Part shown: one piece after another, positions 7,443-17,942 of the stretch | How the letters are laid out: each line of letters begins with the position of its first letter | How positions within the stretch are numbered: position 1 is the first letter of the stretch | Source of the DNA: Deltaproteobacteria bacterium | GTDB taxonomy: Bacteria > Myxococcota_C > UBA6777 | Length of the DNA: 34,783 nucleotides | Reading direction: 5' to 3' | Assembly: GCA_002731275.1 (NCBI GenBank) | Contig: PCBK01000077.1 | Coordinates: forward strand, 1 to 34,783 | Program-made: the position numbers and the translations under genes | The notes under the pieces: model-generated | Databases searched by the model: none | What the model was told of the DNA's origin: nothing | Seen by the model: the letters and a program-made list of their open reading frames with translations, nothing else

Positions 7443-7622
7443 GTAAGGCCGTCGGATGGAAAAAAGCGAAGACAAGAGGGCAGTAGATGGAGCCTCAAGC
7501 AAGGCATGAGGAGAAGGCATAGCATCGCTACGCCGACGACGAATAACAAAGCTTGCGGTTTCAGCAACAACCTCCTGTCTTCGTCTCATTTTCCGTATCC
7601 TTTTTTTTATCTGGCGGCCTAA
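7443..7622 (-). repeat. MITE-like repeat family A, copy 3 (best full-length copy)
   Basis: About 180 bp with clear terminal inverted repeats. The left end is TAAGGCCGTCGGATGGAAAAAA, split here as TAAGGCCGTCGG then ATGGAAAAAA, and the right end CTTTTTTTTATCTGGCGGCC is its imperfect reverse complement. The orientation is opposite to copies 1 and 2. The central hairpin arms are GGCATAGC / GCTACGCC with one mismatch. No open frame of note is inside, so it cannot encode its own transposase. It lies about 55 bases upstream of the membrane-protein gene and could carry or disturb its promoter. Confidence 0.8.
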
Positions 7623-10499: not shown

Positions 10500-10571
10500 T
10501 TAAGACCGTCGGATGAAAAAAGCGAAGACAAGAGGTAGTAGATGGAGTCTTTTTTCATCCGACGGCCTTAA
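10500..10571 (+). repeat. MITE-like repeat family A, copy 4 (internally deleted)
   Basis: Only 72 bp. The left terminus is TTAAGACCGTCGGATGAAAA and the right terminus ends TTTTCATCCGACGGCCTTAA, its near-perfect reverse complement. Between them is the first part of the element (GCGAAGACAAGAGG, then GTAGATGGAG) and nothing of the central hairpin. Both ends carry TTAA, which may be a target-site duplication or part of the terminus. Confidence 0.75.
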
Positions 10572-11139: not shown

Positions 11140-12840
11140 GTGGAACCACACAAAATACAGCAGCTTCTCCACGAAGCTCTCGCGGCCTGGTCGATCAGAG
11201 AATTTCAACGAGCCAAAGCACTATGCATAGAGATTTTATCAGCTGTCCCAGACCACCCACAGGCGAGTGGTTTACTCGCTCAGATAAGCTCTCAGGAGCA
11301 AAGTGAAAGTGGCTCCTTTCGAGTCTATCCAGAGTCCGATCTGTCGCCCCACTCACTTGCGCCCGAGACCCCACCTCCTTTTACACACTCATGGGAGGCT
11401 GATGAATCAGAGCTCCCGCTGGAGTATGAAGAAGGTGGACATAACGAGCATGAACACCAGTCATCTCGTGCCTCGAACACGAAACTTGCAGAAAAACAGG
11501 CCTCCGAGCAGCAATTACGTTCTTTGCTTGCGCAGCTCCCAGAAGGAGAGTCGAACCTACTCCTGTTGGAGGCTCTTGAGATCGCCCTCCAACGCAAAAA
11601 AGGCTCACAAGACTCAAAACAAAGCCTCCCTTCGAACTATGTCCAACAAACACCAACCCCGCCGACCAAAAGAGCACCGACACACTCCTTTCAGGCATAC
11701 AATTCGCCGACATCAGAGTCGCCATCACGTGAGTCACAGCAAGCAAAAGACGACAACAAGAAACGCTCTGGCCCATTTCGGATGTATGCCTCCCGAAAAA
11801 ACAGACAATCATCGGACAAAAACGACTCGCAAACATCTCTCTCAGGCACACATAACGTCCACAGAGGCACAGGGAAACAAAGCACACTCTCGAAAAAAGG
11901 TAACATCGGTCGACTCGCACAAGCATTCGATAACGCGCTCGCAAAGGACAAAGACACCAAGACCAGCTCAAGTGAGTCAAACACGAGCAGACCGACGTCT
12001 GTAAGTAGCTCCTACCCGTCCCTCTCCAGACGCAGTCGCACAGGCTCACATACCCGCCTCACCCCCCAAAGAAGGCAAGCCACAGGACAACACGACGCAC
12101 TCTCAGGCGGGAAACAAAATAAAAAGCACGAGAAGCTCCGGAGACTCGCCGAATCCATCGACAAAAAGCTCGCCGAAGAGATCAAAGAGACTGGTTCTCA
12201 TCCCGCACATACAGCCGCCCAACCAGAGACACGTTCTACCGAATCTACCTCGGAAAACGCCTCTGCAATGAACTCCCAACAATCCCTCGAAGCCTCGATC
12301 CCTCCTCTTCCTCTCACCCTTGACAGTGACCAGCAGCTCAGCAGCTATCCACATGATGATGTAGATGCGATCGACGATATCGCATTCGATGAGCCGGTTT
12401 TTGTCGCACCAACAGGGTCTTCTGCGACACTTACGACACCCATCCCAGCAAAGGATACTCGCAACCAGATCACGACCGAGCGCAAGGAGGTCTCTTCTCC
12501 ACTGCTCGATGCGGTGATGGGAGAGGTTGAAAACGACCCCATCGCCTTGGAAAACTTACTCGCTGATGCTTTCGATCAAATCAACAAAAAAATCCAGGGG
12601 AAAGATTCACTCACACCTTCCCAACCAGGTGCCGCTCTTCAGCAACCAGAGACCCCCTCCCTCTCCATAGAGGAGCAGGAAAAATTTGAAGAGCTTGTGC
12701 ACCATGCCATCGGGGCCTACCTGAGAAGAGACTTCCCCCAAGCCTTGCGATTGTTTGAGGAATGTGCTCAGATCTCCCCCAACAACCCACAAATTACGTA
12801 TAACATTGAAAGACTCAAGAAGAGGGTGGTGAAGTATTGA
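11140..12840 (+). CDS. TPR-type protein with long disordered linker
   Basis: A 566-residue protein starting with GTG, with AGGA just upstream. The N-terminal 50 residues form a TPR-like helix pair (IQQLLHEALAAWSIREF, then AKALCIEILSAVPDHPQASG). The C-terminal 55 residues form another (FEELVHHAIGAYLRRDF, then PQALRLFEECAQISPNNPQI), closely matching TPR spacing and its final Pro/Asn turn. Between them lie about 450 residues rich in Ser, Thr, Gln, Lys and Asp, with short helical islands such as LRRLAESIDKKLAEEI that recur (also GRLAQAFDNALAK and LLADAFDQINKKI). These may be repeated docking motifs. It is the first gene of a same-strand cluster and its stop overlaps the TTG start of the ATPase, so the two are probably translated together. 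A scaffold role is inferred. Confidence 0.75.
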   Translation: MEPHKIQQLLHEALAAWSIREFQRAKALCIEILSAVPDHPQASGLLAQISSQEQSESGSFRVYPESDLSPHSLAPETPPPFTHSWEADESELPLEYEEGGHNEHEHQSSRASNTKLAEKQASEQQLRSLLAQLPEGESNLLLLEALEIALQRKKGSQDSKQSLPSNYVQQTPTPPTKRAPTHSFQAYNSPTSESPSRESQQAKDDNKKRSGPFRMYASRKNRQSSDKNDSQTSLSGTHNVHRGTGKQSTLSKKGNIGRLAQAFDNALAKDKDTKTSSSESNTSRPTSVSSSYPSLSRRSRTGSHTRLTPQRRQATGQHDALSGGKQNKKHEKLRRLAESIDKKLAEEIKETGSHPAHTAAQPETRSTESTSENASAMNSQQSLEASIPPLPLTLDSDQQLSSYPHDDVDAIDDIAFDEPVFVAPTGSSATLTTPIPAKDTRNQITTERKEVSSPLLDAVMGEVENDPIALENLLADAFDQINKKIQGKDSLTPSQPGAALQQPETPSLSIEEQEKFEELVHHAIGAYLRRDFPQALRLFEECAQISPNNPQITYNIERLKKRVVKY

Positions 12841-13639
12841 ACACGATCGCAATCGCAAGCCACAAAGGAGGCGTGGGAAAAACCACCCTCGCTCTTAACA
12901 TTGCATACACGTGGGCCAACCAAGGCAAGCGAGTCCTCCTCGTCGACACTGATCCATGTGGACAATTGAGCCTCGCCCTCAAAGGTGACGCACGTATGCG
13001 TCTTGGGTGGATGGACTTTGTCAAACACTCTCTCTCTCTCTCAACCAAATCGAAACAAGCACCAAGATCGACAAACTCGACATCTTGACTTGTGGTGGGA
13101 TGAGCACCTTTGACGGCGCATTTCTCGATCAATTCCTCTCAGGTGGAAAAGTCCTCAGACGCTTCTACAAAGAAACACAAGTCTACGACGTCGTCCTCTT
13201 CGACACACCGAGTGGACTCCAACCGTTGACCATCCACCTGATGCAAAACGCCGACTACGTGCTTTCGCCTCTCCAACCCCAACCTTTGTGTGTCCGGACC
13301 ATCTCTTCATTCCTCGACACCATCGCAAAGCTCCAAGAAGACAAAGGTCCACAGTTCCTCGGCTTTATCCTCTCTCTCTGGGACATCCAGCACCACACTC
13401 ACAACGAGCTTGTCACTCAACTAAGAGCACAACTCCCTCCTCCCTTCTTGCTCAACAGCGCCGTCCTCAAAGACCCTCTGTTTACAGAAGCCATGTCACT
13501 CGGTACACCCCTCGCCCTGCTCAAACAACCGGCTCCTCCAACCTCCTTTGTCTTTGAGCAGATCGTCGCAGAGCTTGCGTCCAAAATCAACCCAACCAAA
13601 CAGGAGTACAGCGATGAGCCGCGATTTATTGTGGGATGA
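12837..13639 (+). CDS. ParA/MinD-like ATPase, frame broken at a CT tract
   Basis: Reading from TTG at 12837, which overlaps the upstream stop as TTGA and has AGAGGG upstream, gives the deviant Walker A KGGVGKTT (residues 10-17) and the switch strand VLLVDTDPCGQ (33-43). That frame hits a stop at 13086-13088. The rest of the ATPase continues in another frame to 13639: DILTCGGMSTFDG, Walker B YDVVLFDTPSGL, NADYVLSPLQPQPL and a normal C-terminal helix. The frames meet in (CT)7C at 13028-13042, where removing one CT unit joins them into about 266 residues, a normal ParA/MinD length. No other defect is visible. It could be a phase-off allele, a young pseudogene or a sequencing error. The family forms ATP-dependent dimers that position cargo or regulate partners. 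Confidence 0.82.
13028..13042 (+). repeat. (CT)7 dinucleotide tract inside the ATPase gene
   Basis: Seven CT units plus a final C. The tract lies exactly where the two ATPase frames must be joined. It encodes alternating Ser-Leu in either frame, so length changes alter only the downstream frame. Slippage by one unit would switch the gene between broken and intact. Confidence 0.9.
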
Positions 13640-14684
13640 GTCACACTCACTCAAGCAACTCCTCTCAAAGGTAAAGGCCACAGGATGGCAAGGATGGCCA
13701 CAGGAGCCAGAGCCCGAAGCGGTCTCTATCTTTGCGCCCACAGCCAACTTCCCACAGCCTGAGACCAAACGCATTCGTCTCAACGACACTCCTCCTCCGC
13801 AGCCTTCGGTTTCTGTGGAGACACCTACCGCGCCTCCTCCAAGTGTCGTCGCGGAACAATCCCCGCCGCCCTCTCCCGTTGTACACCGCGCAAAAAGAAT
13901 CGCTCCAAAAGGTAGGGCTTCGTCTATCAGCCCATACTCATCGGCGGCGAGGATCATGACAGACGCCCCCTTCCGTCACTATCCCCCGAAAGAGATCGCC
14001 CCCATAGGGTACACCAAGTGGTTCTCCGACGACACGACCACCCCCCATTGGGAACGTGTGTACGAAGATGTGACCCAGCGCATCCCTTTCCAGGCCCCAG
14101 AAGAAGGATGGTTTCAAGCCGGACTCCCATCCTTCCTGGAAGATGACTCGCTCCAACTGCTCATCCAAGATGTTGAGAACATGTACAGCACATTTTCTCA
14201 AGCCTCGGGTCCCATACAACCCGAAAGCATCGAGACATTTCCTCTCTTGGATGCCCAATGCGAGTGGGACTCTATCTCACAAAAAACCCAGCACATTTGG
14301 GAACACACCCACCTGACACAGCGCCTGCATATTTTCCTGGAGTGGCTTCTTCCTTGCTCTGGAGGCTATATGGCTTTCCTCGTCGATGAAGAAGGTAATC
14401 CAATGGCAGAGCTGTTCGCAGATGAACTCTTTATGTCGGTGACAGGCATGTTACCGGCACATGTATTGGTCCCGCTCAGGACATACTTGTTCGAAGAAGC
14501 CGTCCGACGACTTGCAGTGCAACAAATCGTGCTGGAGGTCGACGCTGAATATGTCTTTCAGGTCATCTGGATCGAGACACCGCTTGGTCGCCTAGCCTTG
14601 GGGCTTGTGTTACCGCTCGCGATAGGTGGCCACCAGCTCCAGTTGTATCAACGACTTTTACTCTCGATCCTTGCCATCCCGTGA
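13614..14684 (+). CDS. Protein with possible roadblock/LC7-like C-terminal domain
   Basis: A 356-residue protein. The first 110 residues are Pro-rich and probably disordered (PPPQPSVSVETPTAPPP). A middle section has WERVYEDVTQRIPFQ and two acidic helices. The C-terminal 130 residues look like a roadblock/LC7 or MglB-type fold: a first helix (RLHIFLEWLLPC), the strand pair GGYMAFLVDEEGNPMAELF, a long helix around VLVPLRTYLFEEAVRRLA, then strands QQIVLEVDAEYVFQVIWI and RLALGLVLPL and a last helix. The start at 13614 has AGGAG 8 bases upstream and overlaps the ATPase end by 26 bases. Roadblock proteins usually dimerise and act on small GTPases; here the ATPase is the adjacent P-loop protein. The fold call is by eye. 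Confidence 0.62.
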   Translation: MSRDLLWDESHSLKQLLSKVKATGWQGWPQEPEPEAVSIFAPTANFPQPETKRIRLNDTPPPQPSVSVETPTAPPPSVVAEQSPPPSPVVHRAKRIAPKGRASSISPYSSAARIMTDAPFRHYPPKEIAPIGYTKWFSDDTTTPHWERVYEDVTQRIPFQAPEEGWFQAGLPSFLEDDSLQLLIQDVENMYSTFSQASGPIQPESIETFPLLDAQCEWDSISQKTQHIWEHTHLTQRLHIFLEWLLPCSGGYMAFLVDEEGNPMAELFADELFMSVTGMLPAHVLVPLRTYLFEEAVRRLAVQQIVLEVDAEYVFQVIWIETPLGRLALGLVLPLAIGGHQLQLYQRLLLSILAIP

Positions 14685-14697
14685 AGGAGAAGCTCAC

Positions 14698-15339
14698 ATG
14701 AATCCTTTGAACCTCGCTGCAGCTGCTGAAGGTATTCCGTCACTGCGTGCAATCTTGATCACTGCTATGCCCGATTGTATGCTCTTTGATGCTTATCTAC
14801 CCGGAGATAGCGAAGTCAATCAGGACGACATCGAAGACGCAGCCGCGTTCTTTGGCGACCTGATCCGCGCCAACAGAGAGACACTCAAACTCTTCGGCTC
14901 CTGGTCCTCCAATATCCAATTTACTGTCGAATCAGACGAACTCCTCTATTCAGTCTGGGGATTGCGGAGTGATTTTGTGATCGGCTTCGTCTTTGACGCC
15001 GGTGTCCCTTCAGGTATGATCCGCCACTTTACGAGGCGGATGTACCTCGATCTTCAGCAACAAATTGAACACATGGGCGGTAACATCGAAGCCCCCGAAG
15101 AACTTGTCCTCTTTGAGGAGCCTGAAGCTCCAGAAGAGCAACCACGGGGGGTTGAGCTGCTCGAATATCTCCGAATCTACGCACCTGACCCTCACGCCTC
15201 GATGTTCAGGATCTCTGTTAAAACGGGGATCCCTGTCGAAGAACTCGAAAACCCAAGCAACCTAAGTGGAGAAGATGTCACTCTGATCGAACAAGCTGTG
15301 TGCGACATCTTGGGTATTGACAATATTGACGACCTGTAA
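14698..15339 (+). CDS. Second roadblock-like protein with acidic C-terminal extension
   Basis: A 213-residue protein starting at ATG 14698 with GGAGA 7 bases upstream, 13 bases after the previous gene. Residues 1-125 follow a roadblock-like order: SLRAILITAMPDCMLFDAY (strand pair), DDIEDAAAFFGDLIRANRE (long helix), WSSNIQFTVESDELLYSVW and DFVIGFVFDAGVPSG (strands), then a last helix. An acidic Glu/Pro stretch (130-145) leads to a small helical tail, PHASMFRISVKTGIPVEELE, which may be a separate helix-turn-helix-like bundle. It lies immediately between the other roadblock-like gene and the V4R gene, suggesting that they act as a pair. The fold is inferred by eye. Confidence 0.6.
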   Translation: MNPLNLAAAAEGIPSLRAILITAMPDCMLFDAYLPGDSEVNQDDIEDAAAFFGDLIRANRETLKLFGSWSSNIQFTVESDELLYSVWGLRSDFVIGFVFDAGVPSGMIRHFTRRMYLDLQQQIEHMGGNIEAPEELVLFEEPEAPEEQPRGVELLEYLRIYAPDPHASMFRISVKTGIPVEELENPSNLSGEDVTLIEQAVCDILGIDNIDDL

Positions 15340-15370
15340 TCAGAGACATTCGACAAGAGGATAAAAAGAC

Positions 15371-16618
15371 ATGAGCGATTTGCTTAGCTATCTTCCAGCA
15401 CACGACCTTACTTTTTTTGCCGAGACACCGGTCGTCTTCCACTGTCATCACTATAACTTGTTCCTCGATCAATCGATCGACGACGCCATGGGTGCCGAAA
15501 AAGGTGTCGATTTACGTATGCGCGCTGCCAGAGAAGCCTTTCGTCAGCTCTTCTCAGAGCTGATCAAAAAGACAGGCGCCAGCACTCCAGAAGAGCGACT
15601 CGCCCTCGCGAGCCAGGTCTTTGCTGGCATGGGACACGGCACCCTTCAGATTGAAGGCAGCCGCTGGGGTGGACAGGCCACTGGTAACTTCCTCCACTAC
15701 GGCTTCGCCTGGAAAGACAAATACAGCCAAAAACTCAAGCGACGCCATCCCGCAGACGCCGTCGCTGCAGGTGCTGCAGCCGCAGCACTCGAAGTCGCCT
15801 ACGATCTCACCCCACTCTCCGTCGAGGGGAAAGAGACCGAATGTATCGCCCTTGGTGATAGCGCGTGTTCATTCCAACTGCGCTCCACCAAACCGGAACC
15901 CCTCAGAAAATCCGTCGGAAAAGAAGACGCAAAGAACGTCGTCAAGAGAGCCTTTACAGGCATCCATGAAGACGACATCGTCGATCGCGCCAACAAACTC
16001 CGCGCCTTCCTTGAGACCGTGAAATCAGATGAACGTGGACTGATCCAAGGCTTTGGTGTCTTCGTCACCATGCACCTCTCAGCTTACTACAACCGCATCT
16101 CCTACGACGCACTCTACGAATTGCAGAAACAACACCCACGCTCCTTTGGCGCCATGGAAGCTCTTTTGCGCGAAGCTGGACACGTCTGTGGTTTTAACAC
16201 CTTTGGTGGGATTCTCATGTCACCAGAGTGGGAAGGTCTCTTTGGCCCACTCTCTGGCGATCCCCTCGAAGTCCTGATCGGTTGCTGCGCGATAGGTCGT
16301 GCTCTCGGCTTTGGACATTGGTGTATCGAGGACTTTGAGCCCGAAAAGTACTTCGTCCTGCGTACCCCAAGCTCCTACGAGAGCAATTACCACGCGACAC
16401 GCTACCCACAGGCCGAGACTGGACGATGCTACCTCCTCCAAGGTGGTACACTCGCACAGATGCAGCTCGCGCACCGCGTCAAATGGAAAGAAAAACCGGA
16501 TCTCACAGTCGAATACTACGGTGAACTGTTCCGAAAAGGTGTGCCCTGGAAAGTACAAGAGACCAAGTGCATCTCCAAAGGCGATGATTGTTGCGAGCTT
16601 GTCGTCGACCTCAAGTAG
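15371..16618 (+). CDS. Double V4R-domain protein
   Basis: A 415-residue protein made of two V4R (4-vinyl reductase) domains. The first spans about 20-172 and ends with the family's Cys/acid signature ETECIALGDSACSFQL (Cys158, Cys166). The second spans about 225-415 and ends QETKCISKGDDCCELVVD (Cys400, Cys407/408). Both also share the GFGH or GMGHG turn before the core. V4R domains bind small molecules or metal, as in the sensor domains of XylR-type activators and in BchJ; there are no photosynthesis genes here. The ATG at 15371 has AGAGGA upstream and is 31 bases after the previous stop. It is the last gene of the cluster. A sensory input to the ATPase/roadblock-like proteins is my inference. 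Confidence 0.82.
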   Translation: MSDLLSYLPAHDLTFFAETPVVFHCHHYNLFLDQSIDDAMGAEKGVDLRMRAAREAFRQLFSELIKKTGASTPEERLALASQVFAGMGHGTLQIEGSRWGGQATGNFLHYGFAWKDKYSQKLKRRHPADAVAAGAAAAALEVAYDLTPLSVEGKETECIALGDSACSFQLRSTKPEPLRKSVGKEDAKNVVKRAFTGIHEDDIVDRANKLRAFLETVKSDERGLIQGFGVFVTMHLSAYYNRISYDALYELQKQHPRSFGAMEALLREAGHVCGFNTFGGILMSPEWEGLFGPLSGDPLEVLIGCCAIGRALGFGHWCIEDFEPEKYFVLRTPSSYESNYHATRYPQAETGRCYLLQGGTLAQMQLAHRVKWKEKPDLTVEYYGELFRKGVPWKVQETKCISKGDDCCELVVDLK

Positions 16619-16686: not shown

Positions 16687-17628
16687 CTATCGTCTTCGTC
16701 GACCACGACGTGACCTCTTTCGCTTCTTTCGTCGTTTCTTTCGTCGTTTATACTTGCGGCGTTTCCGTCTGTACTTACGACGAGTACGTCTTCTATATCG
16801 TCTACGATAGCGCCTTCTGGACCGGCGGCGATAACGTCTTCTATATCGACGACGATAACGTCGGTAGTATCGCTTGCGGTAGTAGTATCGCCCCCTACGT
16901 CGACGATAAATCGCACCACGACGCCATCCCCAAGGACGATAACGACGGTAGTAGTTTCGACGATATCTTCGATAGTACAGAGGATATCGGTTGTAATAGG
17001 TGCGGTAACGGCGGTAAAAGAGTCCGCGGCTCCAGTATGAACGTCCCCACCAACCAAAATCCGATCGCCAGTAAGGTCGATACCAGATGTTTGGAAAGAG
17101 GAAAAATCCCGTGACATAGGGAGCGTCAGGACCAAATGTGTGGAGGGAGTTTGGTTCACGATAGTAGTACCCATCACCATCACGCAAGGAGTAATAAAGC
17201 TGCCGGGAGCTTGGATTGTACGCCTTGTTTTGTTCAAACACAAAGAGCAGCTCATCCTTGTCTTGTTGGTAGCCTTTTTGGTTGTTTTCGTCGATGTAAC
17301 CATAAAGGCGAAGAAGCTGATTGACACGTTGGACATCGACACGTACGGGGTTGGGCATCAACGTCGCAGGATCGGCTTTTGGATTCGCCTGACGAAGTGT
17401 CGCAAAGTAAATCGCGTTGACTTCGTCCTCGAAACGCTTCATCCATCCTTCGAAATCTTGGGGATTGCTTCCTTTTGTTGACCACAGCGCTTGCTCGACG
17501 GCTTGCAGGTCAATACGAGGATTACCTATATTGACAGGCTGAAATTCTTTTGTTTGTTGGTGGACACAACCACTCAACCCAGACCACAAAAAGACACTAC
17601 TTAAGAGCAAAAAGACGATTCGTCTCAC
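16687..17628 (-). CDS. Lipoprotein with very basic Arg/Tyr-rich C-terminal tail
   Basis: A 313-residue protein starting with GTG at 17628, with GGAGG 7 bases upstream. A short signal peptide ends in a perfect lipobox LSGC (Cys21). Residues 30-150 form an ordinary globular part (DLQAVEQALWSTKGSNPQDF and YFATLRQANPKADP). From about 165 the sequence turns Tyr/Trp/Arg-rich (FPNIWYRPYWRSDFGWWGR), and the last 100 residues are almost only Arg, Tyr and Lys in RRRYRR units. The tail would be strongly positively charged outside the cytoplasmic membrane, so binding to nucleic acid, lipopolysaccharide or acidic polysaccharide is possible. It is convergent with the V4R gene. The antisense frame here is an artefact of codon composition. 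Confidence 0.78.
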   Translation of the reverse strand: MRRIVFLLLSSVFLWSGLSGCVHQQTKEFQPVNIGNPRIDLQAVEQALWSTKGSNPQDFEGWMKRFEDEVNAIYFATLRQANPKADPATLMPNPVRVDVQRVNQLLRLYGYIDENNQKGYQQDKDELLFVFEQNKAYNPSSRQLYYSLRDGDGYYYREPNSLHTFGPDAPYVTGFFLFPNIWYRPYWRSDFGWWGRSYWSRGLFYRRYRTYYNRYPLYYRRYRRNYYRRYRPWGWRRGAIYRRRRGRYYYRKRYYRRYRRRYRRRYRRRSRRRYRRRYRRRTRRKYRRKRRKYKRRKKRRKKRKRSRRGRRRR

Positions 17629-17942
17629 AGAGGTACCTCCTTTGTCAGTAGACAAATGCATAGGACAGCGTGCGGGCCACCTTACCTTAGAAACATAAGG
17701 CACCCAAATAGTTTACACAACCCCAACCCTCTCCCCAAAAAAATCGCAAGCTCGCTCCAGACGACAACAACAACCACACATGATGAGACCTTCGAATCAC
17801 GACCCTCCAAAAAATGAACGCTTGCTCATTTTTTACAATTGAGGTAGGGTGCGAGGCCAATTCGTGGAGGTTATCGACAACAACAGTCCGCCAAAAGGCA
17901 CGCCTCCCAACACAAAGAAAGCCTTTGGCGCAAGAGGTTATC

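Follow-up and report, generated by a model that had tools for sequence, protein, structure and literature searches.

Four genes, encoding a ParA-class ATPase, two divergent roadblock proteins (RbA and RbB) and a protein with two V4R domains (V4R2), make up a genuine operon whose order has been kept in three bacterial phyla. We propose that this operon is the usual form of a ligand-gated signalling cassette built from an ATPase and roadblock proteins, and we assign this reading a probability of roughly 0.55. Roadblock proteins are platforms and partners for Ras-like GTPases. The cassette is of importance because roadblocks are otherwise known in that role and because no named system is composed in this way: searches of the open-access literature found none that unites ParA, roadblock and V4R, in agreement with the preliminary description of this DNA.

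The operon and its distribution

The window, meaning the whole stretch of 34,783 nucleotides that was analysed, is the entire contig C66 of a 10.75-Mb assembly. In it the quartet is preceded by a fifth gene, the opener, and the coordinates bear out the tight same-strand cluster of five genes that had been described, with intergenic gaps of -4, -26, 13 and 31 bases along the + strand. The features are as follows.

11140-12840, + strand: opener, with a low-complexity linker of about 450 residues and a C-terminal TPR adaptor (residues ~506-566)
12837-13639, + strand: ATPase of the ParA/Soj class with the motif KGGVGKTT, frameshifted in the window copy
13028-13041, + strand: (CT)7 run, the point at which the ATPase frame is broken
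13614-13639, + strand: overlap of the ATPase and RbA genes, 26 bases, of equal length at 7 of 11 loci
13614-14684, + strand: RbA, with a conserved N-terminal peptide, a disordered linker and a C-terminal roadblock domain (~14289-14681)
14698-15339, + strand: RbB, with a roadblock domain (residues 1-125) and a C-terminal helical domain (~150-205)
15371-16618, + strand: V4R2, with two V4R domains and the sites E155/C158/C166 and E397/C400/C408

The start of RbB was placed at the ATG at 14698; the mechanical open reading frame opens at 14626. Two features of the flanking DNA were also seen. Upstream of the cassette, at 10506-10565, lies a perfect inverted repeat, CCGTCGGATGAAAAAAG, whose arms are separated by 26 bases and which has a near copy at 7449 (none expected from shuffled sequences). 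On the 3' side of V4R2 and on the opposite strand is an open reading frame of 338 codons (16687-17703, - strand) whose product has a very long tail rich in Arg, Tyr and Lys.

A genome search for conserved adjacency found the neighbourhood kept across phyla: at 10 loci, spread over seven genomes from three GTDB phyla, the ATPase, RbA, RbB and V4R2 genes follow one another in an identical order, with overlaps of the stop-start and 26-base types. Recurrence at this many loci places the cluster beyond chance. Three of the loci are in the genome under study, where two further full clusters (L011 and L012) accompany that of the window. Full clusters were also found in G002 and in G352, the latter from another phylum, while in G004 the quartet is present and the contig ends before the opener. 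The third phylum contributed quartets from G446, G571 and G407, the last with two copies. The two nearest named carriers of the cluster are labelled as Myxococcota MAGs. Partial loci were found too: contig ends account for L017 and L084, L089 has the ATPase and both roadblock genes without V4R2, L090 has RbA, RbB and V4R2 without the ATPase, L086 has only RbB, V4R2 and openers, and L092 is a further partial locus. The spread of RbB is patchy (three of five genomes of the organism's own family and 7 of 195 in the third phylum), and a search of two further phyla found none in 2 and 398 genomes, respectively. Pairwise identities of the four cassette proteins are correlated (r 0.72-0.96, from only six loci that include one near-identical pair), as is expected from co-inheritance.

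The overlap of the ATPase and RbA genes is exactly 26 bases at most loci, and in most overlaps of this length the ATPase stop codon lies inside the codons of the W-I-[D/E] motif of RbA, so that one stretch of DNA encodes the ends of both proteins. We therefore rejected the idea that the SLSWI[DE] motif of RbA and the LVD tail of the ATPase are independent motifs, since at many loci the same bases (TGGATTGA) encode the two. At L013, L014 and L090, which have no such overlap or no ATPase gene at all, RbA still retains the motif, and for this reason we take it to be also a feature of the protein that is under selection by itself.

The proteins of the cassette

The ATPase carries the deviant Walker A motif KGGVGKTT, the signature lysine and matches to AAA_31/CbiA in Pfam, the features that define the ParA/MinD family to which it had been assigned, and its closest relatives in the PDB are ParA and Soj. 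In the window it is split over two frames, the first, for the N-terminal part, running from 12837 as far as about 13035 and the second, for the C-terminal part, beginning at 13007, and each piece is recognised by AAA_31 (3.4e-15 and 8.1e-9). The frames join at the (CT)7 run at 13028, the sole dinucleotide run of at least six units in the window, and removal of one unit keeps the frame open. The ATPase is a single frame in the other complete copies of the cassette. The frameshift may stem from an error of sequencing, from phase variation or from decay of the gene in recent times. In the paralogous ATPase of L011 (9772-10578) the motif reads KGGVGRTT, and this protein may bind or hydrolyse ATP poorly because arginine has replaced the Walker A lysine. 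The notion that the cluster is an anti-phage defence system was rejected: in a PADLOC scan the ATPase alone was matched, through 47 residues of its P-loop region (7.4e-7), which is no real support.

RbA and RbB are divergent roadblocks, and the Pfam model Robl_LC7 (PF03259) detected neither in a scan of the window proteins and those of the organism's genome. Roadblock folds had been inferred for them in the preliminary description, and structure prediction upheld the inference. Both models, at moderate confidence (pLDDT 71 for RbB and 72 for RbA), show the roadblock topology of helix, two strands, helix, three strands and helix; for each, all 50 of the 50 PDB matches listed were roadblock/LC7 proteins or complexes, with MglB and MglC ranking among the best of those listed and MglC the best match of the RbB model. 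The sequence of RbB leads to the same family, with MglB providing its six best matches among PDB sequences and a profile-profile comparison with MglB (hhalign) giving 96%. Its C-terminal helical domain is conserved and is preceded in some relatives (e.g. L091) by a long linker. In the case of RbA the identity rests on the predicted fold, since profile comparisons with MglB and with RbB found no significant similarity and its PDB sequence match, 1y4o (dynein roadblock), has an E of 0.99 and amounts to no more than a hint. An apparent fusion of RbA to RbB in L087 (a 368-aa open reading frame) did not stand up, since its upstream portion is in another frame and the locus has an RbA gene of its own at that place.

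The two V4R domains described for the last protein of the set are confirmed by PF02830, which matches two stretches above its cut-off (2.1e-10); a comparison with PDB sequences gave no matches. Each half has an E-x2-C-x7-C site of the zinc type, conserved in all six of the cassette copies that were aligned. A comparable site binds zinc in Asgard TRAPPC3 and in bacterial PoxR, proteins that also possess a ligand cavity (PMC10933270), and by analogy V4R2 may bind zinc and a ligand as they do. In other phyla relatives of V4R2 occur alone or divided into two genes, with neither the ATPase nor roadblocks encoded beside them, and one zinc-type site has been lost in some of these relatives. The divided form was seen as adjacent genes in two genomes (L062 6049-7175 and L063 7460-8628), the relative being one protein elsewhere. 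In G389 a lone double V4R gene is divergent from a putative chemosensory operon (L050 7766-16122) whose products resemble, by sequence, CheA, CheW, a globin-like receptor, CheB and CheR.

The opener had been described as a TPR scaffold. Its linker of about 450 residues and its C-terminal TPR are indeed seen, but the description is too narrow, for the body of the gene varies between copies. The window protein is of low complexity over residues 61-510, with 17% order-promoting residues, and has a TPR match at residues 530-554 (TPR_19, 3.8e-5); the N-terminal match reaches only 0.079. Where the window copy has this long disordered linker, the opener of L011 has a Ser/Thr kinase (Pkinase 3.5e-54, with a possible receiver domain at just 0.12) and that of L086 has a domain that by eye is PATAN-like. 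What the openers share is the last 60 residues, which we call the TPR adaptor. A search of the organism's genome with the adaptor returned the three cassettes, two genes on contig C100 and one marginal match, and all five strong matches are in roadblock clusters. The adaptor accompanies roadblock genes whether or not the ATPase is there, because the roadblock cluster on C100 carries it and has no ATPase, and it may bind roadblock proteins.

Proposed mechanism and rival explanations

In the mechanism that we propose, the double V4R protein would bind a small hydrophobic or redox-active ligand, with a zinc-cysteine site stabilising each of its halves; RbA and RbB would assemble into a roadblock heteromer, the central platform of the cassette; and the ParA-class ATPase would act as the nucleotide switch, its ATP-bound dimer being bound or regulated by the platform in the way that MglA is by MglB. 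The opener would couple the platform, via the constant TPR adaptor, to exchangeable inputs and outputs such as a kinase, a PATAN-like domain or a disordered scaffold, and the output would probably be spatial or behavioural control, as in other ParA- and roadblock-based systems. The gene set with its order, overlaps and spread, the predicted folds and the zinc-type motifs are observed, whereas we infer the contacts between the proteins, the binding of ligand and zinc, the control that the roadblocks would exert on ATP hydrolysis, and the output.

We read the parts as a single complex because of the conserved order, the gene overlap, the correlated divergence and the lack of a nearby Ras-like GTPase. 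In L011 the fusion of a kinase to the opener and the presence of a REC-Hpt-REC protein after V4R2 also count in favour of a signalling cassette. Against a single complex are the dissociation of the parts at L090, L089 and L086 and the occurrence of V4R2 relatives alone, together with the loss of the Walker A lysine in L011, an N-terminal peptide in RbA that is not basic and the frameshift in the window ATPase. The narrower claim, that the roadblock client is a ParA-class (SIMIBI) ATPase and not a Ras-like (TRAFAC) GTPase, and that it is gated by a TRAPPC3-class V4R sensor, is a tentative one to which we give somewhat less than even odds.

The identity of the roadblock client is also the point at which the strongest rival enters. 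No Ras-like GTPase was found by MglA match near the cassettes in 17 neighbourhoods covering 276,708 bases, in a search whose positive control passed, and the absence of a GTPase that had been remarked on in the window thus holds at every copy. This makes the cassette ATPase the nearest candidate NTPase. Elsewhere in the same genome a canonical MglA/MglB pair is encoded at C23, and C34 carries two MglA fusions about 22 kb away from one copy of the cassette; the roadblock pair might work in trans on these GTPases in the manner of MglB and MglC, the ATPase being a separate output of the same operon. The MglC match of the RbB model fits this arrangement, which we nevertheless consider unlikely: the overlap of the ATPase and RbA genes is conserved, and the cassette copies have no adjoining GTPase, whereas neighbours of that kind are seen for MglB relatives. 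A profile built from five RbB sequences and searched over 386 genomes, which was not aimed at MglB, found 15 weak matches outside the cassettes, and 13 of them are MglB-type genes that directly adjoin a gene for an MglA-like GTPase. The MglA fusions on C34 (L064 2219-5874) are encoded in tandem and measure 592 and 584 aa, each with the MglA-like GTPase domain at its start.

A polarity or positioning role for the cassette is conceivable, and a second rival takes it further in supposing that the ATPase surfs the nucleoid or membrane to position a cargo in the style of McdAB, Pom or PpfA-TlpT, with the opener, roadblocks and V4R2 forming the adaptor for that cargo, which might be a signalling array. 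ParA and Soj are the closest relatives of the ATPase in the PDB, RbA shares with PomX a layout of conserved N-terminal peptide, disordered linker and self-interaction-type domain (PMC7993993), and the lone V4R2 relative beside the putative chemosensory operon is in keeping with such a cargo. However, known ParA activators have N-terminal peptides rich in positive charge (PMC7993993), whereas the RbA peptide has a net charge between -4 and +1 in all but one of 11 copies; we rejected it as a basic ParA-activating peptide on these grounds. For the cassette we found neither a cargo nor a ParB-like partner nor a basic activating peptide, and no cargo gene is constant. We regard this reading as slightly less likely than action in trans. 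A third rival makes the ATPase an aid to polysaccharide secretion in the manner of BcsQ, with the other genes as ligand-responsive regulators; in its favour, the top NCBIfam match of the L011 ATPase is BcsQ (TIGR03371). It is very improbable, since that match reaches 83 bits where the cut-off is 157.85, and the scanned, partly annotated flanks of the cassettes had no recognisable bcs or polysaccharide genes.

Relation to known systems

The signalling cassette that we favour is best rated as a variant of the roadblock-based switch operons, and as a new kind if the ATPase is truly a roadblock client. It resembles MglA/MglB/MglC of Myxococcus in having a pair of roadblock proteins that share the MglB/MglC fold and receiver-type regulators nearby, but its NTPase is a ParA-class ATPase, V4R2 is added, and the canonical MglA/MglB are encoded separately in the same genome. 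An MglA/MglB module is recognised by a Ras-like GTPase encoded with a roadblock gene, which the cassette does not offer. With the conservons (CvnA-D), the actinobacterial G-protein systems, it shares a compact operon, several copies per genome and the combination of roadblock, nucleotide switch and sensory component (PMC13343842). It differs from them in its two roadblocks and V4R2 and in lacking a histidine kinase core, CvnC and a Ras-like GTPase; among the Pfam and NCBIfam matches of the five genes there was no CvnA kinase, CvnC or CvnD GTPase. ParABS, Pom and McdAB have an ATPase of the same family, with the signature lysine and Walker A motif, but no relative of ParB, McdB or PomX was recognised in the cassette, where the partners are roadblocks without a basic activating N-terminal peptide. 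By its defining features, then, the cassette is not an MglAB module, a conservon or a ParA system with a basic activating peptide.

The pairing of roadblock/longin-class with V4R/Bet3-class proteins is found also in the TRAPP core and in the Asgard roadblock-longin-TRAPPC3 set (PMC10933270, PMC2253512), although the cassette lacks a Rab-like GTPase, has its V4R domains fused in tandem and gives no sign of a membrane role. The presence of V4R (Bet3/TRAPPC3-class) and roadblock (longin-like) proteins in one bacterial operon bears on the origin of such sets before the eukaryotic TRAPP. If the ATPase is the client, the range of roadblock targets would be widened and ParA ATPases would gain a new class of partner; a bacterial signalling machine would have been made from the fold classes of the TRAPP core to drive a different nucleotide switch. 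The parts of the cassette are small and open to direct testing.

The nearest likeness within the same genome is the cluster on C100, which has a TPR adaptor, a roadblock and a sensor protein as the cassette does, but in which an ODP sensor replaces V4R2 and the ParA-class ATPase is absent. Its genes (G000, L072 1067-7634) encode, in a row, a histidine-kinase-like protein, a REC-PATAN-TPR protein, a Robl_LC7 roadblock, the ODP-family sensor and a REC-TPR protein; the row also includes a protein that looks OmpA-like and one with a roadblock-like C-terminus.
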